Shown here in pieces: positions 9,727 to 56,095 of a stretch of 64,000 bases of DNA. Where the stretch lies: positions 372,001 to 436,000 of the forward strand of contig NZ_CP034035.1 in NCBI RefSeq assembly GCF_005484945.1. The letters run 5' to 3'. This DNA is from Brenneria rubrifaciens. GTDB taxonomy: Bacteria; Pseudomonadota; Gammaproteobacteria; Enterobacterales; Enterobacteriaceae. Both the position numbers and the translations under genes were made by a program. Positions within the stretch are counted from its first letter, which is position 1; every line of letters begins with the position of its first letter. Below the pieces are notes generated by a model, which did not search any database, was not told where the DNA came from, and worked only from the letters and a program-made list of their open reading frames with translations.

Positions 9727-9737
9727 GGCGAGCGGAC

Positions 9738-10508: not shown

Positions 10509-10528
10509 TTTGCTTAAGGGAGTGACAA

Positions 10529-28239: not shown

Positions 28240-29061
28240 TCAAGACACCGGAATAACCTGTTTCCATTTTTCTTCATGTAAGCAAGGCGATAAACCACCA
28301 TTGTTCGTATGAGGGCGGTATGCGTTGTAATAACCATTTACCCACTGGTTTATATCGCGTACCGCATGGCTAAAATCACCATACCCGCCTTTTGGAAGCC
28401 ATTCACTTTTAAGGCTACGAAAGACTCTTTCCATCGGCGAGTTATCCAGGCAATTCCCCCGGCGACTCATACTTTGCATTACCCCATAACGCCAGAGTAA
28501 CTTTCTGTATTTATTGCTTTTATATTGAACCCCTTGATCTGAATGAAACAGCAGACGACCATCACGCGGTCGTGTTTCCAAAGCATTACACAACGCCCTG
28601 CACACCCAATCAGCATCAGCGGTTGATGAGAGGGCTGAACCGATAATCCGGCGTGAATATAAATCAACGACAAGCGCGAGATAGCACCATTTATCCTGCA
28701 GACGAATAAAACTGATGTCGCCGCACCAGACGCGATTTGGTGCGGCAGGGTTAAACTGCCGATTCAACAAGTTTGGCAATGGCGGACTGTTGTCTTCGTT
28801 TACCTGGTAGCGATGTTTAACCGGCTGGCGACTTGTCAGTCCGCATTCCTGCATCAGTCGTCGCGCCAGCCACCGGCCTGCATCAACGCCACTCTGGCGC
28901 AGCATCTGGCTGATTGCCCGACTACCCGCAGCGCCACGACTGAGAGGATGAAATGCTCTCACCCGACTTCGTAATTCAATTCTTTGCACATTAACAGGGC
29001 GCCTCACCTGCGCGTAATAAACGCTGCGGTGAACACCGAATAAATGACAAAGAACCAACAC
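28240..29061 (-). CDS. IS3-family transposase OrfB
   Basis: This 273-residue DDE integrase-core protein has [10 protein letters not shown] (first Asp), [11 protein letters not shown] (second Asp) and [15 protein letters not shown] (Glu). An N-terminal HTH_21-like part ([19 protein letters not shown]) precedes the core. In this family OrfB is normally made as a fusion with OrfA by ribosomal frameshifting. The reading frame itself is intact, but the OrfA part is broken in this copy. Confidence 0.9.
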
Positions 29062-31976: not shown

Positions 31977-33111
31977 GCAGCCCGCACGCCGTTGCGCTCT
32001 TTGTGGCTCATCTGTCGCTCAATGGCATCCTTTTTGACCAGCGCCCGGACTCGTTCAGGGCGCTACAGGCCATGGTTCTGAAGCCATGGCCGCACACCTC
32101 GCTTTTGGTGTCATAGCCAATCACGCGCAGCGCTTTGTTGATGGTGTTTTCACTCATCGGCTTGTTCAGGGTATGTGCACCCGGAAAAACAAAGACCGAC
32201 TCGCCGGAAATCGCCTGAATCTGTTTCAGCAGGGCGACTGCCTGCCGTGACAGCGGAACCAGATGTTCATCCTTCATCTTGGCACCGCGTTCTGAGAACC
32301 GCACGCCGTTTACGGCTTCGCGCTGGGCGGGCACACTCCAGATATGCGCTTTCAGGTTGAATTCATCCCAGCGGGCAAAACGTATCTCACTGGAGCGCAG
32401 GAAAACATGCAGGCTTAATTCCAGCGCCAGACGGGTCAGCGTCCGGCCTTTATAGCTATCCATCTTCTCCAGTAGTTCAGGCAGGCGTTTCAGCGGCAGG
32501 GCGGGGTGATGTTGGGTCACCACGGGGGTCACGACGCCATCCAAATCGTAAGCCGGATTATATTTAATCACGCCCTGCTGTACGGCGTGGCGCATGATTT
32601 TGGTCAGATGCTGACGCACCCGCCCGGCGACGTCATGCACGCCTTTGTCATCAATGGCCTTAACCAACTGCGCCAGATGCCGGGTCTCAATCAGAGCGAT
32701 ATCCATCGCACCAATAGTAGGGAAAACGTAGCGTTTCAGGCAGGTGAGGATTTTATCGGCGTGCGCGTCTGACCAGAGCTTAAGGCTACTGGTGTGCCAC
32801 GACATCGCGACATACTGAAAAGTGCGGGATTCATCAACGGTGGGGTTGTTCGCCTTGCGAAGCTGAGAAGGGCTGATACCGGATGCCAGTAGCTTACGTG
32901 CCGCATCGCGCTTTTCACGGGTTTCCGCCAGCGTAGTCTGAGGTTAGGGGCCAAAGGCCAGACGGCTTTCTTTACCGCCGAGGCGATAGCGGAAATACCA
33001 TAGCTTAGCGCCGCTGGCGGATACCGTCAGGTACAGACCTTGCGAATCGGAAAGTTTGTAGGATTTTGTGCGGGATTTGGCTGCGCGGATTTTGCTGTCA
33101 TTCAGGACCAT
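31966..33111 (-). pseudogene. P4-type integrase, decayed (in-frame stop, frameshift, 3' truncation)
   Basis: It reads MVLNDSKIRAAKSRTKSYKL at the N-terminus, then FGP-stop-PQTTLAETREKR at 32944-32946, then continues in the same frame to GRWSK near 32030. There a run CCTTTTTGACC shifts the frame (the intact relative at 49354-50613 has CTTTTGACC). The C-terminal MSHKERNGVRAAYVG follows in the other frame and the gene stops abruptly at the junction with the broken MFS gene. Three independent lesions show it is dead. It is a paralogue of the intact integrase at the right end of the next island. Confidence 0.85.
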
Positions 33112-33484
33112 GTAAGGGTCTCCTTCGTTCATCGAACTGAATGACCCGCAATCTGACCCCAAATTTCCCGGATACGAAGGGATAAAGCAAAACGTATCTG
33201 GAAATATTTTCACGCCAACTTATTGAATTACAACAACATAGGGATTCATAGGGAGGCATAAAAAAAGAATGAGTGGTGCCGGACTCGGAATCGATAGTAA
33301 TCGTAATGCGCTGTTTAATAATATAATTTAATGGTTAAGTGCGATATTAAGCCCCTCTTAAAGCCCCCAGGCCAGATGACTTCATTTTTGAGATATATCG
33401 CATAAATATCAGAATTTTTCATTACTCTTTCCAGAAGGTGGCTATTCATCAGAGCCACAGGTTGAATAATAAACGCTCTATTGA
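33112..33484. other. attachment-region DNA upstream of the dead integrase
   Basis: No gene is visible. It holds the tRNA-Phe-like core at 33274-33294 and AT-rich sequence. A stretch around 33344-33371 with AAGCCCCTCTTAAAGCCCCC resembles the sequence just upstream of the intact integrase (50647-50663), consistent with related attachment regions. Confidence 0.5.
33274..33294 (-). repeat. tRNA-Phe 3'-end-like attachment core, copy 1
   Basis: Read on the minus strand, the sequence is TCGATTCCGAGTCCGGCACCA. This is the 3' end of enterobacterial tRNA-Phe (TTCGATTCCGAGTCCGGGCACCA) with one G missing. No tRNA body is attached. It lies 163 bp upstream of the dead integrase start, where P4-type elements keep their att site. 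Confidence 0.72.
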
Positions 33485-33715
33485 CTCCGACAGAAATTAT
33501 CCGAAGTCAGCAACTGGCTGCCGCCAGTATTGCACGCTGTAGGTCCTGCTGACAGGCATTATAACCCAGCGCGCACTCCACGTAGCTTTTGCCGCAACCA
33601 CTCGGACCCGTTATCAGCCGGTCTTTGTTGCCCCCACTTGTTTTGACTCAGTTGGGCTATCTGGGAACGCTCCAGGTTTCCCGGCGTCTGGTAGTCGATA
33701 GAGCTCATTTATCAA
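33485..33715 (-). pseudogene. IstB-like (IS21 helper ATPase) remnant
   Basis: The minus strand reads MSSIDYQTPGNLERSQIAQL, then in a shifted frame DRLITGPSGCGKSYVECALG, a Walker A region as in IS21-family IstB proteins. Frames are broken and no IstA is present. The flanking part 33716-33884 has a short unassigned frame (VAETIEGVRYAELDCARLAL) without a start. Confidence 0.55.
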
Positions 33716-33884
33716 TGAATTAATTTGGGGCAGGTAAGCTAACGGGCAGGAACTCCGTCGCTAATTGCACGAACAGATAGGAGCATTCCAGTAGAGCCAA
33801 GCGCGCACAGTCCAATTCGGCATAGCGCACACCTTCAATTGTCTCAGCCACCGTGGAATTAATCGCCACTATCTTGGGGGATTA

Positions 33885-35108
33885 TTAGCTGCCGTTGAGT
33901 CTTGGCTGATTGATTCTCATGCAATAAATTAATAAAAAACTAAAAAAGATAGCCATGCCTAAGAAGCCAAATGCAATAATCGAGTCCGTTGTGCTAAGAA
34001 TATAACCCATAACGAATGGGCTCACGGCCGCACCCGCTGCTCCAAGGTTTTGTACCGAAAAATAGCTTCCACGAGCGTATGCTGGCGCTATCAGATCGGT
34101 TATTAAAAATAACGCAGGAACAAAAATAACCTCGCCCAGTGCAAAGAGGAACATGCCAGCGATCCAGGCTGGACGATACTCGTTAGCATGAAAAAAAATA
34201 ATAAGGCCAACTACAAAGCAACCTGTTGCAATCATAAGAAACTTAAGCATATTGCTCTGAGTTATCTTACTGATAATATAATGCTGAAACAGCAACACGA
34301 CTGCAGCATTAGTGAACATCATCAGTGCGACTATGCTGGATGCTGTCTGTGCACTGTAGTGCTGCACCAGATGTTGCGAAAGATAGGCAACGGGATTTCC
34401 GTATACGAATGCTCCAAAAAATGAAGCTAGGGTTAACAGAAACAGATTTCCTGAAGAGAGATCCTCCGGGCGGGGTATAGTTTTGCTATCAGTCGATAAC
34501 GCATCATTATTTTCTGCTTGCTGGATACTAAACCCTCTGAGAACATCAGTCCGTATAATTAGCCAGACAAGCGGGAAAAGTGACGCAAATGCACCTGCGT
34601 AAAAAATCGCATTTAGTTGCCAACTCTGGACCAGAGCGCCAAGCAACGGCCCAAGAGCCCATCCCATATTAACTGCAAAATAATTGGCCGAAAAAATCTT
34701 CTTTTTATCGACGATATCCTTCTGACCGGAGATGTAAGTTCGAAGTAGGATTTCGATGCAGGAATAAGCGAAATTCATCACGATAAGTAAAATTGTAAGC
34801 GTGACAAACTCACCTGACAAAGCGCCCAAAAACACCGAGAGAAGAAACAATAGCAGCAGAACGAATACTGTCAGCCATGCGTTTTCAGCGCGGGCAAGCC
34901 TGCCCGCGTAAAGGCTTAAAACAATGCCAGCAATGGAGCTCAACGATAGTGCAAAACCGGCAGAAGTGATGCTTTCACCGAAGGCAGCAGTCATGTACAC
35001 CGCCAAAAACGGGATGACCGCACCGCGAGCGATAGTAAGAAGAAACGAGGAAAAAAGGAAAAACGAAACAACCGGATTACCTCTTGTCACTGTTACGCTT
35101 AATTTCAT
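33885..35108 (-). CDS. MFS transporter, probable product exporter of the island cluster
   Basis: This 407-residue membrane protein has about twelve helices. It starts with a short basic arm and SFFLFSSFLLTIARGAVIPFLAVYM, and carries the MFS loop signature LYAGRLARAENAW after helix 2. It is more AT-rich than the siderophore region. It diverges from the dioxygenase/radical SAM operon across about 0.8 kb and is the only transporter near it, so export of (and resistance to) the cluster product is the likely role. The substrate is not known. A small upstream frame overlaps its start by 32 bases, and it has no good ribosome site of its own, which suggests translational coupling. Confidence 0.82.
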   Translation of the reverse strand: MKLSVTVTRGNPVVSFFLFSSFLLTIARGAVIPFLAVYMTAAFGESITSAGFALSLSSIAGIVLSLYAGRLARAENAWLTVFVLLLLFLLSVFLGALSGEFVTLTILLIVMNFAYSCIEILLRTYISGQKDIVDKKKIFSANYFAVNMGWALGPLLGALVQSWQLNAIFYAGAFASLFPLVWLIIRTDVLRGFSIQQAENNDALSTDSKTIPRPEDLSSGNLFLLTLASFFGAFVYGNPVAYLSQHLVQHYSAQTASSIVALMMFTNAAVVLLFQHYIISKITQSNMLKFLMIATGCFVVGLIIFFHANEYRPAWIAGMFLFALGEVIFVPALFLITDLIAPAYARGSYFSVQNLGAAGAAVSPFVMGYILSTTDSIIAFGFLGMAIFFSFLLIYCMRINQPRLNGS

Positions 35109-35307
35109 CGATACCCACTTTATTGACTGTCAATTTATCGTTATCGCTCGATCTATTTTCGGGATAAAGATTAATGTTAATTCCGTCATGAAAACCGTAG
35201 ATAATCCCGATGGAGTGAAGGAGTATTATTATGATTTCTTTAAAATAACTTTCATTATCTTTATTGGCAAGATCTGCGATTTTTTTCTTATTATCAGGAT
35301 TATGCAT
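35077..35307 (-). CDS. small 76-residue ORF overlapping the transporter start, unknown
   Basis: The ATG at 35307 has GAGG six nt upstream. The frame encodes a charged peptide with a hydrophobic middle (EIIIILLHSIGIIYGF) and ends 32 bases inside the transporter gene. I recognise no family. It could be a leader that couples translation to the transporter, or a short precursor or immunity peptide. Base use is as AT-rich as its neighbour. Real translation is plausible but unproven. Confidence 0.4.
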   Translation of the reverse strand: MHNPDNKKKIADLANKDNESYFKEIIIILLHSIGIIYGFHDGININLYPENRSSDNDKLTVNKVGIDEIKRNSDKR

Positions 35308-35648
35308 AAAAAACCTCATCAATAGATACATTCGTTCTGAGAGATACTGTTTTTATAATGTAAATAAACAGGCCGGTACGAGAAGGCCAGGAGACATAAT
35401 AATGAGTAGCGTGATCCTTAGGATTTCGCAATTTACTCTTTCCTTTGTTCGTAATTGCTTAAAAATAAAAGGTTTTTTATTAAATCTCATTTTATCAGTA
35501 AGATAAAATAAATAGCACAAATTGCTAAAGCCCATTTTCCTAACACAACAATTGGAGAGTAATCAATAAATCAAAATGTTACTGGTTCCATAATAAGAAA
35601 ATTCTTAACATCAAAATTACAAATAAACAACAAAAATAAGAAATAGTG

Positions 35649-35677
35649 TTGACTTGAAACCTTTGTATGAGGTTAAT
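35649..35677 (+). promoter_or_regulatory. possible promoter of the dioxygenase/radical SAM operon
   Basis: TTGACT (35649-35654) and GTTAAT (35672-35677) are spaced by 17 bp. The -35 box is good and the -10 is weak. It would give a leader of about 220 nt before the first gene. Confidence 0.35.
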
Positions 35678-35774
35678 TATTTGTGAACGAAGCAGGTCTA
35701 ATACTAAGCAGACAGAATATTTTCCTATTCTGCCAGGGCATTATTTGTCTTGAAATAATCATCAAGGTAATACT

Positions 35775-35801
35775 GTAATAATAACTAATGGTTATTATTA
35801 C
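35775..35801. promoter_or_regulatory. perfect 11-bp dyad in the operon leader
   Basis: GTAATAATAAC and its exact complement flank a 5-nt loop about 100 bp before the first gene of the operon. It could be an operator for an unlinked regulator or an RNA hairpin. No T tract follows. Confidence 0.45.
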
Positions 35802-35904
35802 TGTCAGCCATTTTATTTTATCTGCTTCGGTCCCACGATCTACGTCAGCAGTTCGTTATCCGAAAACATTATTTCCTAAGTGAACATACGTTCAGGAGAA
35901 GATT

Positions 35905-36546
35905 ATGCAAAACGTTACCGGTCAATCAGCCATCTCCACACGCGTTCTCAATGCCGCCATTGTCAGCAAGAATGAGCTCAGCCGAATTTCTGAAAATGCA
36001 GATGCAATCCGAGCGAAAGCAATGGAACTCACTGATTCCTGGGAGGGAGTCATGTTTGCGCTTCCATCCGAAGATCTGGAGCGCATCGCGCTCGCTTTGG
36101 GGTTCACCCCCGAAGTGGCTGAGAACATCCATAATGAAATTCGCTCACTGGGTTATGCTAAAACCCAATCAATGGCAGGCCCCGCTTCAATTGCGACCTA
36201 TCATGCATCGGATGTCAGCCTGCTGGCTCTGCGTGGCGTGACGGATTTCGATAATGCTCTTTCGCACGTCAATGACAGTAATCTCCAGCAACTGCTGAAT
36301 GATAACCAAGATACCTTCCAGCGCATCCGCAACGCCCTGCCGGAGCATGCTGCGCGCATGAATTTCAAACCTGAAACCGCCGCCGCTGTATTGAAATCTC
36401 TCGGAGCAAATATCTCCCCCGATCTTCTCTATGAAATTTGCCCGAAATACGGTACTAGCTCCGTTATTGATCTTGAAGGGCGCCGCGGTGTGACCACTGA
36501 ATTTATTCGCTGCGTGACACTGACTCTGGGCACCACCGTTTCCTGA
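35905..36546 (+). CDS. 213-residue protein of unknown family, first gene of the island operon
   Basis: The ATG at 35905 has AGGAG 7 nt upstream (TTCAGGAGAAGATT). The protein is soluble and mainly helical in appearance. It has two blocks that look alike: LPSEDLERIALALGFTPEVAENI (about 52-75) and LPEHAARMNFKPETAAAVLKSLGANI (about 148-175), suggesting an internal duplication of a small helical unit. The C-terminus (GRRGVTTEFIRCVTLTLGTTVS) is rich in Thr/Val with one Cys. I recognise no enzyme motif. It precedes two dioxygenases, a radical SAM enzyme and a methyltransferase, so it may be a carrier or scaffold, a ribosomal precursor, or a partner protein; I cannot choose. The gap to the next gene is 72 bp. 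Confidence 0.75.
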   Translation: MQNVTGQSAISTRVLNAAIVSKNELSRISENADAIRAKAMELTDSWEGVMFALPSEDLERIALALGFTPEVAENIHNEIRSLGYAKTQSMAGPASIATYHASDVSLLALRGVTDFDNALSHVNDSNLQQLLNDNQDTFQRIRNALPEHAARMNFKPETAAAVLKSLGANISPDLLYEICPKYGTSSVIDLEGRRGVTTEFIRCVTLTLGTTVS

Positions 36547-36618
36547 TCCTCATCCATGACAGCGTACTGGTAACGACAGTGATCGGTATGCTGTCTCTTT
36601 TTTATCAGGAGACTCGTT

Positions 36619-37503
36619 ATGAACGATCCTGCATTTCTCCATGTCAATGATATCCGGAAACAACAGTACCTCCGGGATGGTTACCTGCTTGTAGAATCAC
36701 TGCTGGACCCGACCTGGGTTAAGGACCTCAACAGTGTAATTCACCAGTTAACCGAGGATTCGCTGCGCTCCGGCAAGTATGAGCATGTACTTGAATTCGA
36801 AAAAGGTACGGTGGATGGCCATCAAGTCCCTCGTCGTATTTTCAATCCGTATGAGCAACATGAGTCTTTTCGTCTGGCGGCGGTTGATGACCGTATAATG
36901 GCATATGTGCAGGCGCTGATAGGCCCGGATATCGCCCTACAACACAGTAAGTTGAATATGAAACCGCGCAAAGTCGGCTCTGTTGTTGAATGGCATCAGG
37001 ATTATACCTACTTCCCGCACACAAATGACAGCCTGACGGGTGTACTCATCTACCTGGATGACGCTACCGCTGAAAACGGTTGCCTCGAAGTGCTTCCGGG
37101 GTTGCATACCCGAACCTTTGATCATGCGCTTGCGGATGGCAGTTTTGCCGGCATGATAACTGAAGATATGAACGAGCGCATTTATGGCAGACCCGTGAGC
37201 CTGGCCGCTCCCGCAGGTAGTGTGATTTTTCTGCATCCGTTCACACCTCATCGCTCAGCACCAAATACGTCAGATGCTCCCCGGAGCACATTGATATTTG
37301 AATATCGTGCAACGGACGCTTTTCCGCTTTACACCGGGACTCAACTGATTTCTATGGAAGCCTGTGCCCATCATTTACGAGGTGAGCGAAAGAAAACAGC
37401 CCGCTTCGGCGGGCCAGCACCAGATATTTACACCCCGAAAGACATTCCCAAATCACTTTATGAACTCCAGGATGCATCCCGTGATGCACTGAGCCAGAGC
37501 TGA
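36619..37503 (+). CDS. phytanoyl-CoA dioxygenase (PhyH) family Fe(II)/2-oxoglutarate oxygenase, first copy
   Basis: This 294-residue protein has the HxD iron ligands in EWHQDYTYFPHTN, the distal His in FTPHRSAPNTS and the 2-oxoglutarate-binding Arg in RSTLIFEYR. These fit the PhyH/EctD superfamily, which hydroxylates or otherwise oxidises small molecules using O2 and 2-oxoglutarate. The GCLEVLPGLH block is a family hallmark. The ATG at 36619 has AGGAG upstream. It shares the operon with a second PhyH protein of clearly different sequence, so two oxidation steps on the same scaffold are likely. The substrate is unknown. Confidence 0.9.
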   Translation: MNDPAFLHVNDIRKQQYLRDGYLLVESLLDPTWVKDLNSVIHQLTEDSLRSGKYEHVLEFEKGTVDGHQVPRRIFNPYEQHESFRLAAVDDRIMAYVQALIGPDIALQHSKLNMKPRKVGSVVEWHQDYTYFPHTNDSLTGVLIYLDDATAENGCLEVLPGLHTRTFDHALADGSFAGMITEDMNERIYGRPVSLAAPAGSVIFLHPFTPHRSAPNTSDAPRSTLIFEYRATDAFPLYTGTQLISMEACAHHLRGERKKTARFGGPAPDIYTPKDIPKSLYELQDASRDALSQS

Positions 37504-37529
37504 ACCACACTAACCGACGGAGCTGATTT

Positions 37530-38513
37530 ATGTCACAGACTGGTATTAACCGTATCGCTGCCGACTATCACGAAAACGGCTATGCGGTTCTAAAAAATGT
37601 CTTTTCGCCGGACGAGGTCTTAAACCCAGTCATGATTGCCTATGATGCATACTGCGACAGCCTGGCGGAAAAATGGCTGGCGGATGGCACCATCGGTACT
37701 TATGAACCGCATGATACAACTGAAAATAAGATGCTTTCACTGATGCGCCAGACGGATGGTAATTGCTTTCAGAGTCTCGATATTACACTGCCTGTTGAAG
37801 ACACTATCCGTAAGGACTCACCACTTTATCTGGATGAAACCATTTTCCGATTGCTTCGCCATCCCCGGCTTTTGGATGCCATAGAGCAAATCATCGGGCC
37901 TGAGATTTATTCCGTCCCGGTGCAGCACATGCGAATCAAGCCACCCCAGAAAAATATCACCCAGGAAACGCGCAGCCATACACTCACACTAACCGGAAAA
38001 ACATTTTGGCATCAGGACCTGGCAGTCGTAACCCCGGATGCAGACAGAACGTCCATGTTGGGTGTCTGGTTGCCTATCAACGAGGCGACCGAAGAGAACG
38101 GCTGCCTTATTGTGGTACCAGGCAGTCACAAAGGCGGATTGGTACATCACTGCGATAAACCACACCTCCAGGGGATACCTGACGAACTCGTCGGTGAAGA
38201 TTTTGTCGCTCTTCCTGTCAGGCCGGGTGATGCGATTTTTCTTCACCCCTTGACCATGCATGCGTCTCTGGCCAATGCAAGTCGAGGAGGACGGTGGAGT
38301 TTCGACCTACGATATTGCCCGACTGGCCAACCAACGGGCAGAGAATGGTTCCCCGGGTTTGTGGCAAGAAGCCGAAATAATCCAGTGTCTGAGCTCAAAG
38401 ATCATGCATCCTGGGTACAAGCTTGGCATAACGCCCGCTTCGCGCTGGCCGGTCAGCCACATCCCAAGTTTGATCGCTGGGATAAACATGATCGCAGCCC
38501 GCTTTGCGCCTAG
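37530..38513 (+). CDS. PhyH-family Fe(II)/2-oxoglutarate oxygenase, second copy
   Basis: This 327-residue protein has the HxD motif in FWHQDLAVVTPDAD, GCLIVVPGSHKGG, the distal His in LTMHASLANAS, and Arg in GRWSFDLRY. It is longer than the first oxygenase and only distantly similar, so it is not a recent duplicate. An insert around QNITQETRSHTLTLTGKTF precedes the iron motif. It is spaced 26 bp from the preceding gene and 9 bp from the next. It probably acts on the product of, or in sequence with, the neighbouring enzymes; the reaction is unknown. Confidence 0.88.
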   Translation: MSQTGINRIAADYHENGYAVLKNVFSPDEVLNPVMIAYDAYCDSLAEKWLADGTIGTYEPHDTTENKMLSLMRQTDGNCFQSLDITLPVEDTIRKDSPLYLDETIFRLLRHPRLLDAIEQIIGPEIYSVPVQHMRIKPPQKNITQETRSHTLTLTGKTFWHQDLAVVTPDADRTSMLGVWLPINEATEENGCLIVVPGSHKGGLVHHCDKPHLQGIPDELVGEDFVALPVRPGDAIFLHPLTMHASLANASRGGRWSFDLRYCPTGQPTGREWFPGFVARSRNNPVSELKDHASWVQAWHNARFALAGQPHPKFDRWDKHDRSPLCA

Positions 38514-38522
38514 GAGGTAAAG

Positions 38523-40169
38523 ATGTTTGATATCTCTATGCTCGAAAAATCAGGTACTTTTTCTGTCTCAGAGGGTCCACCGAGGCTGGCACTGGTGCAT
38601 CATGGATTTCGGACTACCCAACTAGGTGCGGCGGATAAACGTCAGGATAAATTTGCCGCTCGTTATGCCTCCCTGGGCCTGCTAAATCTAGCCCGCTCTG
38701 CCCAAGTGGACGCTGAGCACGGGCTAATCCCTTTCAAACCTTACATAAAATATTTTGATGAGGATAATTACAGCGGAGATGCGGAGCTGGCCACCGCTAT
38801 TTCCGAGTGGCTGAGACCCGCCTGTGCTCGCTTTGTGCTTATTAGCCTCTATTCACTTGCGTTTGAACGTACTCGAGCCATGGTTTCCCTCATGGACCCC
38901 GAAGAATTTTGTATCATGGTTGGCGGCGCACATCCTACGGTTGCACCAGAAATAGATTTTGCCCATTTAGTGGTGAGAGGTGAAGGGGGCGGTGCTCTCA
39001 GGCATACACTCTCCACGTTTCTTAAGCCCGACTTTGGCGAAGGAGAAGAGGCCCGGGGCATTTGTTTTGTGCGTGATGGGAAAGTCACCATGGGCGCCAC
39101 CGTTTTTGATAAATCGTTGGCTAGTATTCCCTCGCCAGCATTTGCCTATGAGCTTATCCAGGATGACACCACTCTGGCCGGCGAGTCTCGCGAGCGATGG
39201 TGGAAGGCCGTTGGTGAGTCCCAGCAGATTTATATCTGTACCCAAAGCTGTAGAGCTCGATGCACCTTTTGCTCAACCTATCTCATTCATGGCAAGCTTG
39301 TTTCACGACCGGTTGAATTAATCGAAGGTGACATCAGGTATCTCTTGCAATTCGGGAACGACTCTATTCAGTTTCATGATGATGATCTTCTTCAGCACGA
39401 GAGCCTGGATGAGCTGCTCGAAATGCTATCAAATTACAATATATTATGGACATGCAATGCCCGCTCGGAAGTGATGAATGCCAATCTCGCCGCGCGCATG
39501 TACCGCGCTGGTTGCCGCAAGGTCTTTCTGGGCCTGGAATCTATGGACCAGCGAAGCCTCGACTATTACAACAAGGCCACCACGGTGGAGATGAACATTA
39601 ATGCGGTCACTGTCTTGGATGCCGCCGGCATAGGTGTTGTCTGCGGCTATATCATCGGTGCGCCTCATGACACTATAACCAGTATTTTGGATGACTTGGA
39701 TCGGGTGCTGAAACTGCCTATTTTCTTCTTGGCAACAGCAATACTGACGCCGGATATCGGAACAACAGAGTACAAACGTGCATTGAGGCGAATCCCATTA
39801 CTGCAGGAACTGGGTGACGGGGGAACAAAAATGAACATTCGGCCCCGGCCTGATCTCTTTGGCGCGTCTGCTCCCTACGGGCTTCCAACTGTTGCGGAGG
39901 CCGTAACCAAAGATCAGCTTAATGAACTGTATGCGATGGTCAATTGTGAGTTCATACTCCGGCCAGAACTGCTGGAAAGAGTCCACCGCTATGTTTATCC
40001 CACCCGCCTTAACGAAGCATTATCCTGGTGTTCCCTGCAGCGACAAAGAGTCAGGGAGCTTGCCAGTGGCGCTACTATTCCAGAGGTCAGGCAGCGAGCA
40101 AAGCGGCTTTCTCAATTTATCGAGAATAGAGGATTGTTATCTGAATATGAAATGAGGGATTCCGCATGA
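38523..40169 (+). CDS. radical SAM enzyme with N-terminal cobalamin-binding-type domain
   Basis: The protein has 548 residues. About residues 20-190 form the Rossmann-like part of B12-binding radical SAM proteins (LVLISLYSLAFERTRAMV-type strand, MVGGAHPTVAPE, VVRGEGGGALRHTL). The 4Fe-4S/SAM motif CRARCTFC (CxxxCxxC) is at about 243-250, followed by the radical SAM barrel (IQFHDDDLLQ, RMYRAGCRKVFLGLES, GYIIGAPHDT). Members of this class methylate unactivated carbons or rearrange rings. The cobalamin His of the DxHxxG motif is not obvious, so B12 dependence is probable rather than certain. It overlaps the following methyltransferase gene by 4 bp. Confidence 0.9.
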   Translation: MFDISMLEKSGTFSVSEGPPRLALVHHGFRTTQLGAADKRQDKFAARYASLGLLNLARSAQVDAEHGLIPFKPYIKYFDEDNYSGDAELATAISEWLRPACARFVLISLYSLAFERTRAMVSLMDPEEFCIMVGGAHPTVAPEIDFAHLVVRGEGGGALRHTLSTFLKPDFGEGEEARGICFVRDGKVTMGATVFDKSLASIPSPAFAYELIQDDTTLAGESRERWWKAVGESQQIYICTQSCRARCTFCSTYLIHGKLVSRPVELIEGDIRYLLQFGNDSIQFHDDDLLQHESLDELLEMLSNYNILWTCNARSEVMNANLAARMYRAGCRKVFLGLESMDQRSLDYYNKATTVEMNINAVTVLDAAGIGVVCGYIIGAPHDTITSILDDLDRVLKLPIFFLATAILTPDIGTTEYKRALRRIPLLQELGDGGTKMNIRPRPDLFGASAPYGLPTVAEAVTKDQLNELYAMVNCEFILRPELLERVHRYVYPTRLNEALSWCSLQRQRVRELASGATIPEVRQRAKRLSQFIENRGLLSEYEMRDSA

Positions 40170-40957
40170 ACACCAAGTCGTTCGCAAGTAGCTATGTTCC
40201 CTGCTTTCCTGAGCAGATACAGGCGATGCTGCGTGAAGGAAAAGATCCCCACAAGGATTTGGTTGAACTGTTTATGACAAATACCGCAATACATGCCACC
40301 AGTGAACAGCGACGCGCTATTGTGGAAAGTCACTATCATATCTCTAATGAACTCATCAGCCCACATAGTACGCAAGATATTCTTTCGTTCTGCACCGAAA
40401 TTCTCTCGCTTACGCAAAGCCGTCCAGGATGTGTGGTTGAGGCGGGGTGTTTCAAAGGTTCAAGCACCGCCAAGTTCAGCTTGGCCGCCGCTATTGCTGG
40501 GAGACCGTTAGTGGTTTTTGATTCATTTATGGGATTGCCCGCCCATAACGAGGAACACGGTATGAGTATTGAAGGCCGTGAGGTTGTTTTTCGTGAAGGT
40601 GAGTTCTGCGGCTCGCTGGAAGAAGTGAAGGCAAACGTTGAAAAGTATGGTGACATAACAATATGCGAGTTTGTACCTGGATGGTTTTCAGAGACCATGC
40701 ATCACTGGTCCAGGCCTGTTGCCACGGCATTTCTGGATGTGGACCTGCTGCTTTCAACCCGCGAATGCCTGCGATGCCTCTATCCCTGTCTCGCGCCAGG
40801 AGGGAATATTTACTCACAGGATGGGCATCTTCCACTTATTCTGGAACTGCTGGAGGATGAACAGTTTTGGCGGGAGGAACTGAAAACTGAGCCTCCCATT
40901 CTTGAAGGTATAAGGAAAGGCAAGCTGATAAAAATCACCCGGCCTTTTACGGAATAG
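40166..40957 (+). CDS. TylF/MycF-family SAM-dependent methyltransferase
   Basis: This 263-residue protein has a SAM-binding loop VVEAGCFKGSSTAKF, VVFDSFMGLP, an acidic metal-type motif AFLDVDLL and the TylF-type ending APGGNIYSQDGHL. Relatives O-methylate sugars or other hydroxyl groups in natural-product pathways. In this operon it could methylate a hydroxyl made by one of the oxygenases. It starts at the ATG overlapping the radical SAM stop (ATGA, 40166-40169) and ends 10 bp from the convergent TyrRS gene. The family assignment is good; the acceptor is unknown. Confidence 0.85.
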   Translation: MNTKSFASSYVPCFPEQIQAMLREGKDPHKDLVELFMTNTAIHATSEQRRAIVESHYHISNELISPHSTQDILSFCTEILSLTQSRPGCVVEAGCFKGSSTAKFSLAAAIAGRPLVVFDSFMGLPAHNEEHGMSIEGREVVFREGEFCGSLEEVKANVEKYGDITICEFVPGWFSETMHHWSRPVATAFLDVDLLLSTRECLRCLYPCLAPGGNIYSQDGHLPLILELLEDEQFWREELKTEPPILEGIRKGKLIKITRPFTE

Positions 40958-40967
40958 ATGTCTGCGC

Positions 40968-42176
40968 CTACCTGACGATAAAACGGTGACGTTTACCCAT
41001 CCAAAGGAGCATGCCTGGCTCCGGATAAATCGTTGCCAGTTCATCGGTCTCTTTGTGGGCATTGATCCTTACTGCCCCCGAACGGATAAGCCGCCGGATC
41101 TCAGAGCGGCTCATTTCGGCAAGGGCCTGGCTGCAGAGATCAATCAGTGACAGGTGCGCATGTCCTTCAAGATTGAGGGGAAGATGGTCTTCTTCGGTGG
41201 GATTGTGTTGTTGAAATACCCGCTCAAAGTGATTGCCAGCAGTGTCAGCCGCTTCGCCACCATGGTAGATTGCAACTATCTTGTGTGCCAGATCCTTTTT
41301 TAAAAGAATGGGATTCATTCCCCGTTCCACCTGCTCTCTGGCCTCAATGATGTGTTCTGCAGGCACATTCGTGGCCAGGCTGAGATAACTGAAAATGAGA
41401 TGATCGGGCAGCGACATGACTTTCCCGTACATATCCTCAGGGTTGTCTGTTAACGCAATATAGTTCCCTTTCGATTTACTCATTTTATCCTTGCCGTCCA
41501 GCCCCTCGAGCAAAGGCATAGTGATGACCGACTGTCCCTCACTTCCGAAGGACTCCTGTAGCATACGCCCTACCATGTTATTGAAGAGCTGATCCGTACC
41601 ACCAAGCTCAATGTCCGCGTTAATCATCACAGAGTCATATCCCTGAAGCACTGGATACAGGAGCTCGTGTAGATGAATAGGGGAGGATGCGGCATATCGG
41701 TTTTTGAAATCATCACGCTGCATCATTTGTGCCAGCGTGACGCGGGAAACAAGCCCAATGATTTCAGAAAAAGGCATTTTTCTGAACCAGTCGGAGTTGC
41801 GGCGTACTTCTATACGGGAAATATCTATAATTCGGCCGAGCTGGTCGATATAGGTCTGACTATTAATAGCTATTTGTTCTTCACTTAATGGTGGACGAAG
41901 CTTGTTGCGACCCGTCGGATCACCAATAGAGGCAGTAAAGTCACCAATAATAATGACAATACTGTGACCAGCGTCCTGAAACTGCCTCAATTTACGTAAT
42001 ACAACAGCATGCCCGAGATGAAGATCAGGTGCAGTAGGGTCGAATCCAAGCTTAATGACCAGTCTACGATTTTCTTTTGCGGCTAGTGCAAGCTTCTTTT
42101 CAAGCCCATCAGAGGGTTCCATTATGGCAATATTTGAAGCCAATACTGCAATATCATTATCAGTGTTCATTGACAT
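40968..42176 (-). CDS. tyrosyl-tRNA synthetase, second (TyrZ-like) type
   Basis: This complete 402-residue class-I synthetase has the HIGH motif as DLHLGHAV, KMSKS as KDKMSKSKG, tyrosine-pocket region GFDPTAPD and IGDFTASIGDPTGRNKLRPP, and a C-terminal S4-type RNA-binding domain (RRLIRSGAVRINAHKETDE). E. coli-type housekeeping TyrRS reads SLHLGHLVPLL with a different GDP loop, so this is the other bacterial TyrRS clade and most likely an additional copy. It is convergent with the oxygenase/radical SAM operon inside the island. Resistant duplicate synthetases are a known self-immunity device for producers of synthetase inhibitors; I infer that here. An alternative is supply of Tyr-tRNA to a tRNA-dependent enzyme, but none is visible. 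Confidence 0.93.
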   Translation of the reverse strand: MSMNTDNDIAVLASNIAIMEPSDGLEKKLALAAKENRRLVIKLGFDPTAPDLHLGHAVVLRKLRQFQDAGHSIVIIIGDFTASIGDPTGRNKLRPPLSEEQIAINSQTYIDQLGRIIDISRIEVRRNSDWFRKMPFSEIIGLVSRVTLAQMMQRDDFKNRYAASSPIHLHELLYPVLQGYDSVMINADIELGGTDQLFNNMVGRMLQESFGSEGQSVITMPLLEGLDGKDKMSKSKGNYIALTDNPEDMYGKVMSLPDHLIFSYLSLATNVPAEHIIEAREQVERGMNPILLKKDLAHKIVAIYHGGEAADTAGNHFERVFQQHNPTEEDHLPLNLEGHAHLSLIDLCSQALAEMSRSEIRRLIRSGAVRINAHKETDELATIYPEPGMLLWMGKRHRFIVR

Positions 42177-42738
42177 TCTCAGGAGAGTTAACAGGCAGTT
42201 AACGTTATTTTCTTAAGTACGTTCCTGTCGAGCCAGAGTACAATTTAAAAATAGCTTCTGCGCGGCATCGGTTGAGCTTGATACAGTACAGATTCAAGAA
42301 CCTCGCGACATCATAAAGCAATCCCCCATGTTCCCCCAAAATAATACCGTCCCACATCCTCCCTCATTACGTCTGTCCAGGAATGGTCATCTTATTGATT
42401 TTAAAATATTTTTTCATTCCCCCACTTACTCTGTGCCTAGACAACCGTAAAGTGGGGAGATTAGCCATTTTTTTTGGTTTTCCCCCGGAGTCCCCCACCT
42501 CATACTCTGGCTACTCGCGACGGAAAAGGCTTCATTTCCGCAAAGCGTGTTCCTGGGATGGTAATGCGCACCAGCGCATGGCAGGCGGCAAAGAACGTTG
42601 CAGAGGGTGGCAAGGCTGCTGGCCGCCGGGACCCGGCGAAGCCGGTTGAGGATTAGCAAAATCCACGGAACCCCGCACGCCCTGCAAAGCCATGCGGCCT
42701 GACCGGCAATGTCCTGGGCCGAGGTACGTCTCGCCCCG
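42177..42738. other. intergenic stretch upstream of the island TyrRS
   Basis: No gene is supported. The left part (42177-42420) is AT-rich and should carry the TyrRS promoter; I see no T-box-like leader. The right part is GC-rich like the ATPase remnant that follows, marking a compositional break near 42480. Confidence 0.5.
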
Positions 42739-43616
42739 TTAGCGCGGCAACGCCGCGATGTATCGGGGCTCCGAGGGCCGGTCCGGGCGGTGGCCTTCAT
42801 CGTTCAGCACCAGGGACACAATCTCCTCTCCGTCATCATCCGCGTACAGCGGCACCCGGTTTAACGCATAGGCCTGGCGCGGCGGCTCCTCCGCATCCTT
42901 CATCTTGGTGCAGCTCAGCACCAGCCCCGGCCCTGACTCTTCGCGCCGGACGTTAAATTCCGCATCCAATGCCGCCCGGAAGGCGCTGGAGCCGCGTGTT
43001 CCTTTGTCCTCATCTTTGCCGGAATGATGGATAATCAGCACCGTGGCGCGGGTTTTTGCCTTGATATAATCACAGCCCTGAATAATCACAGCCCTGAATA
43101 AATGCGCCCATATCGCGGGCGGCGTTCTCATCCGAGCCGCCAAAACAACGCGCCAGCGTATCGAGTACAATCAGCCGGACCGCCATCCCGGTCTGGCTTT
43201 GCACATCCTGTGCGGCCATCACGACCAGCTCCGCGCTTTCCGGACTGGCCGGGAAAACCGGGCAGTCAATGCGCCACAGGCTGCTGACCGGGCTGTCGCC
43301 ATTAAAGGTGTTTTCCCAGGCCTTAATGCGCCGCGGTACGCCGATACCGCCTTCTCCGACAATATACAGCACCGAGCCCTGCGTGACCCGCCGTCCCGCC
43401 CAGGGCATGCCGGTGGCGATATGGCAGGCCCAGGACACCGCCAGGAAGGACTTGTACGAGCCGCTGGGGCCGTAAACTGGGTAAATGCCCCTTGATAAGG
43501 TAATCCTGGCGGGTGTCGTAGCCCTGCGAACCAGGATGCAAAGGCAGGGTGGTGGTGAAGGGGGACTTCTGCTGGTCAACCAGCAAGGGTGGCTTCATAC
43601 GGACCTCCACGGTCAT
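42739..43616 (-). pseudogene. RepA/RecA-like AAA ATPase, two frameshifts
   Basis: Joined across frames, this is a plasmid/phage RepA-type hexameric helicase domain: Walker A GPSGSYKSF, GSVLYIVGEGG, Walker B RLIVLDTLARC, then TVLIIHHSGKDEDKGTRGSSA. One shift lies near 43490 (a GGGG run between DYLIKG and IYPVYG). The other is caused by a 16-bp tandem duplication at 43066-43097. The start codon at 43616 or further upstream is uncertain. The high GC content contrasts with the neighbouring biosynthetic genes. It is a replication or primase-accessory relic of a mobile element. Confidence 0.75.
43066..43097. repeat. 16-bp tandem duplication that breaks the ATPase frame
   Basis: ATAATCACAGCCCTGA occurs twice in direct succession. 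Removing one copy restores the reading frame (GCDYIKAK), so this is a recent slip-type mutation. Confidence 0.9.
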
Positions 43617-43711: not shown

Positions 43712-44602
43712 TCATGTTTTTCCTCCTGCGGGCTGTTGGGCATACACCCGTTTCACAAACTCCCCGCGCCCGTCACCGTGCCCCAGGTCCATCGCCACCC
43801 GCGCCAACGCGTCTTTATGGCCGGCACCCTGCTGGCGGTGCCAACTGAGGCTGTCCACCGCCCAGGCATAGCGCAGGCTTTGGGAGGCCTGTCGCCCGGT
43901 CAGTCCCAGTTGGCGAAGATGATAGTGGTAGTAGTCCATGGCATTTTTGAGTGCCGGGCGGTCAATCAGCCGACCGTGGCGCTGCGCGGCAATCTGCCGG
44001 GCGGTGTCGATGGCCGCGTTGACCTGCTGCGGGTAAATGACGCTGGTTTCCCGCAAGCGTCCCCCCTTGGTGCCGAAGGTGATTGTCAGCCGGGATTTCC
44101 CGGCGTCCAGCTCATGTCGCCAGGTGTCCAGCGACAGCACGGCCTGGACCGCTTCCTGGGCCCGTAGCCCCAGCAGGCGCTGAAGTTGCAGCGTGGCCGC
44201 CAGTCCGGCGTCGCGCGCCAGCGCGTTCTGATAAACGCGGTCAAACACGGTGTCCGGCAGCGGGTCTTTGGTCCCCGCCCGGCTGGCCCCGCTGATACCC
44301 AGGGTTGCGTTGCTCAGACGGTGGTCTTCCACCAGCCGGTCGCGTCCGGCCGTATGGAGCACCGTCCTGATGGCGGCCATTTCATTTTGCAGGCTGCGCG
44401 CACCGATGCCCTCGGCCTTACGGGCCTCGATATAGCTTTCAATGTGTCTGGCTTTAATCTGCTCCACGCTGCGGGACTGGATGTTGAGGGCGCGCAGGTG
44501 TTGCACAAACCGCCGGGCCATGCCGGTGCGGTCATGCACCGTCTTGTAACTGCCACCCGCCTGGCGAGCCAGCCGGGTTAATTCCCGTTGTAGCGTCGAC
44601 AT
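43712..44602 (-). CDS. integrase-domain protein (tyrosine recombinase-like)
   Basis: This 296-residue protein has an N-terminal SAM-like core-binding part (RHIESYIEARKAEG, NEMAAIRTVLHTAG) and a C-terminal recombinase part: Arg in LLGLRAQEAVQ, Lys in FGTKGGRLRE, Arg in SQSLRYAWA, His in LGHGDGRG and a terminal Tyr in FVKRVYA. The ATG at 44602 has GGGAGA upstream and aligns with the start of the related gene at 63475. Proteins of this type are common beside plasmid-like genes in enterobacterial islands. The role (resolution or integration) is not established. GC-rich like the ATPase remnant. Confidence 0.8.
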   Translation of the reverse strand: MSTLQRELTRLARQAGGSYKTVHDRTGMARRFVQHLRALNIQSRSVEQIKARHIESYIEARKAEGIGARSLQNEMAAIRTVLHTAGRDRLVEDHRLSNATLGISGASRAGTKDPLPDTVFDRVYQNALARDAGLAATLQLQRLLGLRAQEAVQAVLSLDTWRHELDAGKSRLTITFGTKGGRLRETSVIYPQQVNAAIDTARQIAAQRHGRLIDRPALKNAMDYYHYHLRQLGLTGRQASQSLRYAWAVDSLSWHRQQGAGHKDALARVAMDLGHGDGRGEFVKRVYAQQPAGGKT

Positions 44603-46232
44603 AAAAATGTCTCCCATACCTTGTCCGTCTGTTTCAGGTACTCATACACGCCATTACCCAATGGCAATGGGTAGTGGTACTGACCTTTCCCCGGTGACGC
44701 GGTCCTGAAGACGAATACCTGCACCGGGGCGGGGTGTCAGGTGAGGTATTGCGGGGTACGGTGACGCACTCGGTGCGGCCGCCTGACGCGTGTCAGGATA
44801 TTTCCCCAGGCCTTCCGGCCTGCCTCGGTATTCGGTCTTTTTCCTCCTTAGTAGTCGATGGTTGACGGGGATAATCGCAGGCCTGAGAGGCCTGTCAGAT
44901 GGTGACGGTTGCGGCAGACGCCGCGCGGACAAGGGCGGGCTGCGGCAGTGCGGAGACGGTCACTTTGCGCTGTCGCTTTAAAGTGACCGTCCCGCCCGCG
45001 GGCCGGTGAAAAGGCGTATTGCCGCAGTGGGCCGGGAGCAGTGATTGCCGCATAAGGATAAGGCGCCGCCAGGCAGAGGCCACGGTGGCAAGGTGCAGTG
45101 AGCAGATAAAAAAGTGGGCAAGCGGAGTCGATTGCCCTGAAAAAAGCCAGATGAGCACCTGAGGTGAAATCAAGGGGGGCAGTAAGCCCGGCTAACAACA
45201 TCACACCCATGCGGCAACGCATGCGCCTGCGTTAACGGTGTGTGGGCAGGCCGGGGAGAGGTCACAGCCGGGGGGACCGGTCTGCGCAGCCTTAAAGACC
45301 TGGGCTGCCTGGGGTGCTGTCAACAAACAGCGTTTCGCATGAATTTTATACAACCATTTGGCGGCGGGCGCAAGCATTGCCCACAATTGACACGACGCTA
45401 ACGCGCTTCGCTTGTTATCCGGGTAGGGCTTGAGTAAACCAGTGACACACGCCCTACCCGGAGCTATTTAAAGGCAAACGAGGACGAATTGTCCTTCAGT
45501 CTTGAACAGGAGTGATTTAGCCCAGGCGATTTGCATTCTGTTTACGCATAGCAGCATCAGGTCTTGTCTGTGTGACGGCATTCAGGTAAAAATGTGTTCG
45601 GGCATTTCCGGTGGCGTACCGGGTGGTTTGTACTCCGTTTAGCCTGTCGCCTGCGCGTCGCCGGAAATGTCTGTTTTGCCCGCCATCAGTTAGCCCCTCG
45701 ACTGAAACAACACCTCTTCCACCGGTCAGTAAATTCCAGGATAGGGATCTCTTGCATAAATTAAGTCGGCGAACCCGCATCTCCCCACGCTAAATCAGCC
45801 AGCTGTCCTTCCATAAAAGCGGTGAGATCACGCACCTTATTGTCAGGTGATTGCCGACAAATCGTCAGGCAGCATGGTGCCGTTGACGCTGATGTTATCA
45901 GCCCACCCAGGCAGCCAGGATCTTCAGGGCTGCGGCGTGCTTTCACACGCAGATCCGGTCCGCTCCGCATCACATGGCGGACAACGTGCCCCGGCACGGA
46001 TGCAGCATATTCACAGCGACACCATCGTTTTCCATCGTGATACACTTCATCGTACCTGCTATTTTAACAGGAGGACTTGTTTTACAAGATCATCGTCATC
46101 CTTGCACTGATTGCATGCGGCTACGACATGCTGAAATCAGTTATCCATGCTTTCTGCGAAAGTCTGTATGGTATACTTCGACATACGATGTTGTTCTGTT
46201 CGTATTTTTTCAGTTAACTCACAGGAGGCTCC
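44603..46232. other. long non-coding or decayed stretch
   Basis: These 1.6 kb hold only short frames with no family signal. The left half (44640-45400) is very GC-rich with many short inverted words; the right half is mixed and ends in the DUF29 promoter region. I find no RNA gene or clear origin. It may be the decayed remainder of plasmid-like backbone genes. Confidence 0.45.
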
Positions 46233-49353: not shown

Positions 49354-50613
49354 TCAGGCAACCTTAATCGACTTCTCAAAGCGATAAGCCGGGATGAACT
49401 GATGCAGGCAGGCGTCGAGATAGTCCGACCACCATTGCATCATCTGCGTGCGTTCGTCGAGGTGCTCCGCCTTGTGGATATAGGCGGCGCGAACGTGGTT
49501 ACGCTCTTGATGGCTCATCTGCCGCTCCACGGCATCTTTTGACCAGCGACCTGATTCAATCAACGCGCTACAGGCCATTGTGCGGAAGCCATGTCCGCAA
49601 ATGTCCACCTGTGTATCATAGCCCATCGTGCGCAGCGCCTTGTTGATGGTGTTCTCACTCATTGGCTTACGTGGATCGTGATCGCCGGGAAAGAGTAAAT
49701 CCCCGTTGCCGGACAACAGTTTTAGCTGCTTCAGTACCGTTACCGCCTGTTTTGACAGCGGCACCAGATGCGGCGTTTTCATTTTTGCGCCCCGCTCTGA
49801 GTGACGCACGCCAGCTATAGGCTCACGCTGTGCGGGAAGTGTCCACATGGCGTTATCCAGATCGATCTCCGTCCAACGGGCAAAACGCAATTCACTGGAG
49901 CGGATAAAGATCAGCAAATTAAGCTGTACCGCCAACCTTGTTAGCAGCCTGCCGGAATAGCCTTCGATTCGTTCCAGCAGTTCCGGCAATTTTTCCAGCG
50001 GCAGGGCAGGGTAATGGTTTTTCGGTGGTGGGGTGATAGCGCCGCAGAGGTCATTGGCCGGATTGCTGGCAATCAGTCCTTCCTGTACGGCGTAACGCAT
50101 GATGACTGTCGTGCGTTGCTGTATCCGTGCAGCCGTTTCCAGACAGCCCTTTTTCTCCGCTACCCGTAGCGGGATCAGGAGATCTGCGGTTTTCAGGTCG
50201 GTGATAAGGGTATTGCCGATGAGCGGGAAAACGTGCAATTCCAGTGAGCGCAAGACTTTGGCGGTGTGTGCCTCAGTCCAGCGAATATTCGCGGCCACCC
50301 ACTGACGGGCAATGGCTTCAAAGGTATTGCCGTTTTTCTTCGCCTGTTTGTCGTGCTGTTTTTTTAAGCCGGGATCGTCCCCCGCGCTGAGAATAGTCCG
50401 GGATTCTTCACGCAGTTTACGGGCATTTGCCAGCGAGACAGTCGGGTAAGCGCCAAACGCCAGCTTCTTCTCCTTGCCGCCGAAGCGGTACTTAAGATGC
50501 CAGAGCTTGGAACCGTTAGGTTTGATCAGCAGGTATAAGCCCTGCGCGTCGCTGAGTTTGTAAGGTTTATCGAGCGGCTTGGCGTTGCGGATGGCGGTAT
50601 CAGTCAGAGGCAT
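49354..50613 (-). CDS. P4-type (CP4-57 family) site-specific integrase, intact
   Basis: This 419-residue tyrosine recombinase has the N-terminal DUF4102-type domain (DTAIRNAKPLDKPYKLSDAQGLYL), then the core-binding region and catalytic part: Arg in FIRSSELRFARW, HxxR in CGHGFRTMACS, the SHQERNHVRAAY block with the nucleophile Tyr. It catalyses integration and excision at tRNA 3' ends. Its start lies 164 bp from a tRNA-Phe-like core, so tRNA-Phe is the likely target. A decayed paralogue sits at the other end of the island. The ATG at 50613 starts the conserved domain. Confidence 0.95.
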   Translation of the reverse strand: MPLTDTAIRNAKPLDKPYKLSDAQGLYLLIKPNGSKLWHLKYRFGGKEKKLAFGAYPTVSLANARKLREESRTILSAGDDPGLKKQHDKQAKKNGNTFEAIARQWVAANIRWTEAHTAKVLRSLELHVFPLIGNTLITDLKTADLLIPLRVAEKKGCLETAARIQQRTTVIMRYAVQEGLIASNPANDLCGAITPPPKNHYPALPLEKLPELLERIEGYSGRLLTRLAVQLNLLIFIRSSELRFARWTEIDLDNAMWTLPAQREPIAGVRHSERGAKMKTPHLVPLSKQAVTVLKQLKLLSGNGDLLFPGDHDPRKPMSENTINKALRTMGYDTQVDICGHGFRTMACSALIESGRWSKDAVERQMSHQERNHVRAAYIHKAEHLDERTQMMQWWSDYLDACLHQFIPAYRFEKSIKVA

Positions 50614-51031: not shown

Positions 51032-52352
<1,321 letters not shown>

Positions 52353-52392
52353 TACCTGGCACCGTGGGTGTTGGATCTAAAGGGGAGAATTA

Positions 52393-55452: not shown

Positions 55453-55492
55453 TCGTCGATGTGCCAGAAGCTTCATTCGGTGGAACTGTATA

Positions 55493-55965: not shown

Positions 55966-56095
55966 TATGCATGCTCACCCGAATAAAACATTTTCTTGTT
56001 GGTGCGGATACGATAAAGGTTATCGAGACGGACCTGAAGGATATGGATATTTTTCAGGGCTTCAAAGTCGATGACTGACTTTATTCAAAAATATA

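Follow-up and report, generated by a model that had tools for sequence, protein, structure and literature searches.

A mobile seven-gene cassette of Brenneria rubrifaciens with a second tyrosyl-tRNA synthetase, probably an immunity enzyme

A 64,000-nucleotide stretch of the Brenneria rubrifaciens genome (contig NZ_CP034035.1, positions 372,001 to 436,000; hereafter the window) contains a seven-gene group that encodes an orphan protein of 213 residues (U213), two PhyH-type oxygenases, a B12-type radical S-adenosylmethionine (SAM) enzyme, a TylF-like methyltransferase, a major facilitator superfamily (MFS) exporter and a tyrosyl-tRNA synthetase (TyrRS). We interpret this group as a mobile biosynthetic cassette that most likely makes a TyrRS inhibitor and carries its own TyrRS for immunity, and consider this reading probable. 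It is based on the gene content and order, a foreign second TyrRS alongside another TyrRS in the host, purifying selection, and mobile genes on both sides. The gene set is undescribed in the open-access literature that was searched, and a description in subscription papers or preprints is possible. To our knowledge, few natural TyrRS inhibitors exist in the record, and we know of no described biosynthetic pathway to one.

Gene content and organization

All seven open reading frames (ORFs) lie where the original prediction, made from the window alone, had placed them, and the ORF list and the Pfam and NCBIfam profiles recovered the families and motifs that it had named. The features of the cassette are as follows.

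33885-35108, minus strand: MFS exporter, 407 aa, divergent from the operon (PF07690, 97 bits)
35109-35904, no strand: AT-rich intergenic region, 796 bp between the MFS gene and U213, presumed to hold divergent promoters
35905-36546, plus strand: U213, 213-aa orphan family, gene 1 of the operon
36619-37503, plus strand: PhyH1, Fe(II)/2-oxoglutarate oxygenase (PF05721, 116.1 bits, cut-off 22)
37530-38513, plus strand: PhyH2, Fe(II)/2-oxoglutarate oxygenase (PF05721, 102.8 bits, cut-off 22)
38523-40169, plus strand: B12-type radical SAM enzyme, probable methyltransferase (PF04055, 56.6 bits)
40166-40957, plus strand: TylF/MycF-like O-methyltransferase (PF05711, 57.6 bits, cut-off 23)
40968-42176, minus strand: TyrRS, presumed immunity enzyme (TIGR00234, 345.1 bits, cut-off 113.8)

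The intergenic gaps from U213 through TyrRS are 72, 26, 9, -4 and 10 bp; the convergent tyrS, on the strand opposite to the operon, ends 10 bp past the TylF-like gene. All seven genes are open frames, with no internal stop in the five cassette proteins checked. The GC content of the cassette is 0.473, compared with 0.537 and 0.609 in the measured flanks, and that of positions 35000-35999 is 0.344. A search of Rfam across positions 33000-43000 gave no match up to an E-value of 1, and no riboswitch or leader RNA was found there. In an alignment of the upstream regions (at most 350 bp) of the 11 U213 genes described below, only the presumed ribosome-binding site stood out as a conserved block.

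Conservation of the cassette across genomes

Among 72,556 plasmid records searched at the DNA level, four matched. The one that matched over most of the query (81% covered, 70.3%) is a Pantoea dispersa megaplasmid (L014), which carries the full set of seven genes in the order seen in the window, with identities of 83, 66, 73, 85, 65 and 69% for U213, PhyH1, PhyH2, the radical SAM enzyme, the TylF-like enzyme and TyrRS respectively, and 45% for the MFS protein; U213 and the radical SAM enzyme are the most conserved of these. Genome contigs were scanned with two peptide patterns taken from an alignment of U213 proteins, which located nine loci (three in Photorhabdus, five in Xenorhabdus and one in Legionella moravica). 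The three Photorhabdus loci (L015, L017 and L018) contain U213, both PhyH genes, the radical SAM gene, the TylF-like gene and the TyrRS gene in order, and two of the three also have the MFS gene.

The enzymes are present in 5 of the 11 fetched U213 loci (the window, L014, L015, L017 and L018), with protein identities of 57-85% across cassettes (35-45% for the MFS protein). In all five, the TyrRS gene is convergent with the TylF-like gene at a distance of 6-10 bp. No TyrRS match at 1e-5 was found in the stretch around any of the six enzyme-free U213 loci, the left side of one of which (L020) comprises only 274 bases. Because the identical order recurs in four other fetched loci, the arrangement is not due to chance. 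The original prediction had held that the lack of such a co-occurrence elsewhere would speak against it; the synthetase was found with the enzymes in both Pantoea and Photorhabdus. L015 and L018 have common neighbours, L017 adjoins prophage-like genes and a recombinase, and the Pantoea cassette is on a plasmid. Between Photorhabdus pairs, the ratio of nonsynonymous to synonymous substitution rates (dN/dS) is 0.09-0.25 for U213, PhyH1 (one pair only), PhyH2, the radical SAM enzyme, the TylF-like enzyme and TyrRS, and these six genes are under purifying selection in these relatives.

For Agrobacterium vitis and for three environmental sets, U213 and a TyrRS of the same clade were also recorded with equal longest-contig sizes (620734, 31101, 27661 and 15386), which suggests, without proof, that the two genes share a contig in each. 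In Pantoea sp. PGP6, a 157-residue ORF (P0035) consists of a middle portion of U213 fused to the final portion of the TylF-like protein, which suggests a deletion of the intervening genes. A cassette-type TyrRS (P0065) is recorded for the same strain, though possibly on another contig.

The cassette TyrRS and the other TyrRS of the host

The cassette TyrRS, which we take to be of the 'TyrZ type', has intact catalytic motifs (HLGH at residue 53 and KMSKS at residue 231). The host belongs to the GTDB family of the enterobacteria, which also has Xenorhabdus among its U213 carriers. Its genome, a single 4.03-Mb contig, contains three PF00579 genes. One of them (G000:C1:1699739) is another TyrRS, which groups with the Photorhabdus and Xenorhabdus TyrRSs in the tree; we assume it to be of the E. 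coli type, its LYCG motif presumably being that of the E. coli enzyme. The gene at 117140 is similar to tryptophanyl-tRNA synthetase (TrpRS) by BLAST, with 32-41% identity to two TrpRSs versus at most 26% to either TyrRS. The window TyrRS is thus not the sole TyrRS of the genome, the case in which the original prediction would have had to be abandoned, and its being the housekeeping copy is ruled out by the second TyrRS at 1699739. The earlier assignment of the window enzyme to a clade not used by E. coli also fits, since the other host TyrRS groups with the Photorhabdus and Xenorhabdus enzymes and has LYCG. The cassette TyrRS has IKLGFDPT where the host TyrRS has LYCGFDPT, a motif that presumably adjoins the tyrosine site. 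An inhibitor fitted to the host TyrRS could spare the cassette TyrRS because the clades and the LYCG/IKLG motif differ.

At a threshold of 1e-70, a window-like TyrRS was found in only 2 of 392 genomes of the GTDB family of the host, both of them cassette carriers, with the best few candidates per genome scored; that it is an ordinary gene of the family is therefore ruled out. The second of these genomes (G768, TyrRS 64% identical) has a locus identical to the P. noenieputensis cassette L017 (29 of 29 hundred-base words). In the GTDB order, 262 of 394 genomes, including that of the window, gave TyrRS matches at 1e-60; the other matches listed are 43-51% identical and are taken as probable housekeeping copies of other families. 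The nearest named TyrRS (97% identity) is from Rahnella sp. CG8 and shares its longest-contig size (51429) with U213 protein P0002, which has 100% BLASTP identity. All three Photorhabdus carriers have three PF00579 genes each, and a housekeeping-type TyrRS is present elsewhere in all three. The Xenorhabdus carriers of U213 without enzymes have two PF00579 genes each (6/6 rows, corresponding to five assemblies, as G020 is the same as G424).

A quick TyrRS tree, with SH-aLRT (approximate likelihood-ratio test) support only, included P0056-P0105 of the 74 homologues P0056-P0129 as well as TyrZ-type housekeeping rows of the order, 28 of which were read correctly; three TrpRS rows (L002, L046 and L050) were removed beforehand. 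Two rows on a very long branch (L063 and L075) are probably wrong ORFs and were dropped from the later residue comparison. In the tree, the TyrRSs of the cassettes are separated from these 28 housekeeping rows but do not form an exclusive clade. Among the 15 rows labelled as cassette enzymes, which include near-identical pairs, the label 'same contig as U213' means equal longest-contig sizes for P0056, P0075, P0081, P0084 and P0099, and the labels of P0064 and P0065, which were given for the species or strain only, are unproven. The A. vitis TyrRS (P0099) falls outside the Jannaschia set. Some residues are peculiar to the cassette group, for example N200, where all 28 TyrZ-type housekeeping rows have leucine. 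Separately, a viral contig (L087) contains a TyrRS-like ORF of 286 aa at 9983-10843 that is 53% identical to the cassette-type TyrRS; at 1e-5, nothing else on this contig matched any of the seven proteins of the cassette.

Tailoring enzymes and exporter

Both oxygenases contain the HxD...H motif, with HQD at residue 126 and PHR at 210 in PhyH1, and HQD at 161 and MHA at 243 in PhyH2. The radical SAM enzyme has the CxxxCxxC motif (CRARCTFC at 243, the first two motif cysteines being 4 apart). Its match to the B12-binding family PF02310 (23.3 bits) is under the 32.1-bit cut-off, and GGxH is present but DxHxxG absent. The earlier designation as a B12-type enzyme is retained because many related B12-type NCBIfam radical SAM models match, every one under its cut-off, while the B12-binding part of that claim stays below threshold. 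The TylF-like enzyme has DVD at 191 and DGH at 219. The MFS protein matches the NCBIfam model YdeE at 192.5 bits, under the cut-off of 582, and an MFS gene is found at the equivalent position in L014 (45% identity) and in L015 and L018 (35-36%).

In NCBIfam, the radical SAM enzyme and PhyH1 match best to models from PhpK-type P-methyltransferase and methylphosphonate hydroxylase pathways. However, the scores are far under the cut-offs (80 bits versus 600, so that the PhpK threshold is not reached, and 67.4 bits versus 500 respectively), and none of the seven genes is phosphonate-forming. Judged by its enzyme classes, the pathway would hydroxylate and methylate a small precursor, which is consistent with the methylated, hydroxylated amino-acid or peptide product that had been proposed.

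The U213 family

U213 belongs to no Pfam family. It was found in 3 of 12 Photorhabdus genomes, in 2 of 394 genomes of the GTDB order, in 2 of 398 genomes of a phylum sample (the same two as in the order sample), in 1 of 143 Legionellaceae genomes and in 1 of the 72,556 plasmid records. It was not found in phage records or, by two peptide patterns, in viral contigs. Conservation peaks at residues 38-51, 98-111 and 189-208. A precursor of a ribosomally synthesized and post-translationally modified peptide, with a variable C-terminal core, is ruled out, as residues 198-208 are among the most conserved.

The structure model of U213 has a confidence of at least 50 throughout, except for residues 1-11, which likewise speaks against such a precursor. 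Sequence comparison with the PDB gave nothing convincing (best E-value 0.43), Foldseek found no PDB match at an E-value of 0.001 for U213 or its C-terminal half, and a BFVD fold search with U213 gave none below 0.001. An internal duplication is unconvincing, the profiles of the two halves matching with probabilities of 2% and 25% and E-values of 0.023 and 0.0008 over 27 and 17 columns. U213 may be the missing scaffold enzyme, a substrate-binding protein or a regulator.

The five Xenorhabdus loci (L016, L019, L020, L021 and L022) contain U213 without the cassette enzymes. Four of the five have asd on one side, and the three of these with a left flank have a gyrB-like gene opposite; the fifth has an MFS gene on one side and a siderophore-like operon on the other (the gyrB-like and siderophore-like neighbours were named by eye). 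Because dN/dS of the lone U213 is 0.10-0.14 in four Xenorhabdus species pairs, it is retained there for a function of its own. The radical SAM gene, searched at 1e-20, was found in none of the five Xenorhabdus carriers and not in L. moravica, but was found in the one Photorhabdus control; the other enzymes were not searched genome-wide. The idea that Xenorhabdus carries a duplicate aspartate-semialdehyde dehydrogenase for resistance is ruled out, as asd is single-copy in 5/5 Xenorhabdus genomes; one of two Photorhabdus genomes has two copies.

A variant locus in Legionella moravica

The genes that follow U213 in L. moravica are a convergent TrpRS gene 63 bp away, a 2-oxoglutarate oxygenase gene and an MFS gene. 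The oxygenase (PF03171) is of another Pfam family than the cassette PhyH proteins, and the genome has another TrpRS, 35% identical. The locus mirrors the plan of the cassette: an oxygenase, an exporter and a spare class Ic synthetase. TrpRS matches at 1e-60 were found in 21 of 140 Legionellaceae genomes, four of which, besides L. moravica, are close (65-93%). These accessory TrpRS genes (L095-L098) include two that are split by transposase-like genes and one that follows a resolvase-like gene, as judged by eye.

Comparison with known systems

Agrocin 84 is encoded on a plasmid together with a resistant leucyl-tRNA synthetase, and SB-219383 is of microbial origin, although we know of no described gene cluster for it. 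Valanimycin biosynthesis employs a seryl-tRNA synthetase (SerRS), VlmL, as a biosynthetic enzyme. Spare synthetases accompany albomycin, mupirocin, borrelidin and agrocin 84, according to excerpts of PMC9032320. The albomycin enzyme AbmK (SerRS2) resembles the cassette TyrRS in being a divergent second synthetase within a cluster, with a housekeeping copy elsewhere (excerpts of PMC9032320). However, the synthetase is a different one, the cassette lacks nucleoside and siderophore genes, and resistance is here presumed. Agrocin 84 likewise combines an inhibitor cluster with a spare synthetase (excerpts of PMC9032320), but no adenylate-coupling gene was recognised in the cassette, which has two PhyH genes, a radical SAM gene and a TylF-like gene instead. 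Indolmycin is a tryptophan mimic that inhibits TrpRS, and SB-219383 is a tyrosine analogue that inhibits TyrRS (excerpts of PMC7916415). As with indolmycin, the product could plausibly be a small aromatic amino-acid mimic directed against a class Ic synthetase, although the target of the cassette would be TyrRS and the likeness drawn is one of product type.

Proposed function and alternative explanations

In the proposed mechanism, the operon would make a small molecule that the two PhyH enzymes hydroxylate or oxidise and that the B12-type radical SAM and TylF-like enzymes methylate, while U213 would handle or recognise the substrate or control the operon, and the MFS protein would export the product. 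As a mimic of tyrosine or tyrosyl-adenylate, the product would most likely block the TyrRS that enterobacteria normally use, and the producer would keep translating with the other-clade TyrRS, whose tyrosine pocket is perhaps different. That TyrRS is the target of the product is inferred from the genes. The idea of a TyrRS-inhibitor island, as first put forward, gains from the alien second TyrRS beside conserved enzymes and an exporter, the other TyrRS in the genome and the co-occurrence across genera; it is complicated by Pectobacterium and by AbmK.

Several observations weigh against this interpretation. The five enzyme-bearing loci are relatives, so that the 5/5 association does not represent five independent events, and only four of the eight non-enterobacterial U213 genes on contigs larger than 10 kb are size-matched to a TyrRS among the best 120 listed. 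The branch of 53 rows that holds the 15 labelled cassette rows also includes 4 Pectobacterium rows and 34 context-free rows, Jannaschia among them. The Pectobacterium TyrRSs (P0057, P0059, P0060 and P0061) are 85-87% identical to that of the window, and neither U213 search listed any Pectobacterium protein; this shows that tyrS and U213 are not strictly linked, and the Pectobacterium TyrRS may provide immunity without production. U213 itself is more than a cassette part, persisting alone in Xenorhabdus under purifying selection. The cassette has no obvious scaffold-building enzyme (nonribosomal peptide synthetase (NRPS), ligase or phosphoenolpyruvate mutase). Its MFS protein is the least conserved member, and the 10 kb upstream of the L017 cassette contain nothing that matches it at 1e-5. 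No U213, oxygenase or MFS gene was found near the four close Legionellaceae TrpRSs, one of these stretches being a 3.8-kb contig, and the link between U213 and TrpRS, seen in one genome, may be a coincidence.

The main rival explanation, which we regard as unlikely, is that the TyrRS is a biosynthetic enzyme, alone or in addition to its role in immunity, that supplies Tyr-tRNA or tyrosyl-adenylate, in the manner of VlmL. AbmK offers a precedent, as it both contributes to the formation of SB-217452 and confers resistance (excerpts of PMC9032320). The intact catalytic motifs, the constant position of TyrRS in 5/5 enzyme-bearing loci and the residues specific to the cassette group, such as N200, would suit such a role. 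However, tyrS is on the strand opposite to the operon, a close relative exists in Pectobacterium, where U213 was not found, and no aminoacyl-tRNA-using transferase was recognised by Pfam or NCBIfam among the other cassette genes, U213 having no assigned function.

Less probable still is that the TyrRS is a mobile accessory gene that acts against environmental TyrRS inhibitors or D-tyrosine stress and became linked to an unrelated metabolic operon. The fixed position and the distance of 6-10 bp, shared by cassettes that have diverged and lie in several neighbourhoods, argue against such a loose association, as does the lack of a match to this TyrRS type in 390 of 392 family genomes; the Pectobacterium relatives without detected U213, and the lone, mobile-looking TrpRS copies of Legionellaceae, two of them split, are in its favour. 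A third explanation, that the product of the cassette is a signal, a pigment or a compound for scavenging nutrients, unrelated to TyrRS inhibition, and that U213 is a tandem winged helix-turn-helix regulator with MerR/BldC/Xis proteins as candidate relatives, is very improbable: it leaves the TyrRS unexplained, all Z-scores are below 8, and the second helix of each half, with which MerR-type proteins read DNA, is not the most conserved part of U213.

Genomic surroundings

Integrases and a transposase-like gene form a mosaic that encircles the cassette, between positions 28240 and 50613, with integrase genes on either side:

28240-29061, strand not stated: transposase-like gene
32008-32805, minus strand: phage-type integrase ORF, 265 aa (PF22022 and PF00589; no Arm-DNA-bind match)
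43712-44617, minus strand: integrase (Integrase_1) on the other side of the cassette (PF12835, 179.1 bits)
49354-50613, strand not stated: integrase with an Arm-DNA-bind match

An NRPS cluster at 1268-18930 contains an AMP ligase, isochorismatase-like and short-chain dehydrogenase/reductase-like proteins (both named from sequence by eye), further NRPS-type proteins and an MFS gene, and looks like a catecholate siderophore cluster. Possible phage-defence genes are located at 51726-57892, where 56096-57892 matches PADLOC PDC-S71 at 1.6e-129 and 53393-54319 has a weak match to Hp1; no match was obtained for three further ORFs of this region.

Implications

The compact operon, with its probable target alongside, could be cloned whole and tested directly. 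U213 connects the enterobacterial cassette with other loci, one of them with a second TrpRS. We tentatively suggest, as a possibility that is open to considerable doubt, that U213 marks an unnamed class of clusters, each of whose products hits a class Ic synthetase and each of which carries the matching resistant synthetase. This would be TyrRS in enterobacteria and possibly in rhizobia, TrpRS in L. moravica, and possibly others in the Streptomyces branch. In that case U213 would act as the core protein common to the class, either substrate-recruiting or catalytic, and, if this is true, a genome-mining handle for new synthetase inhibitors.

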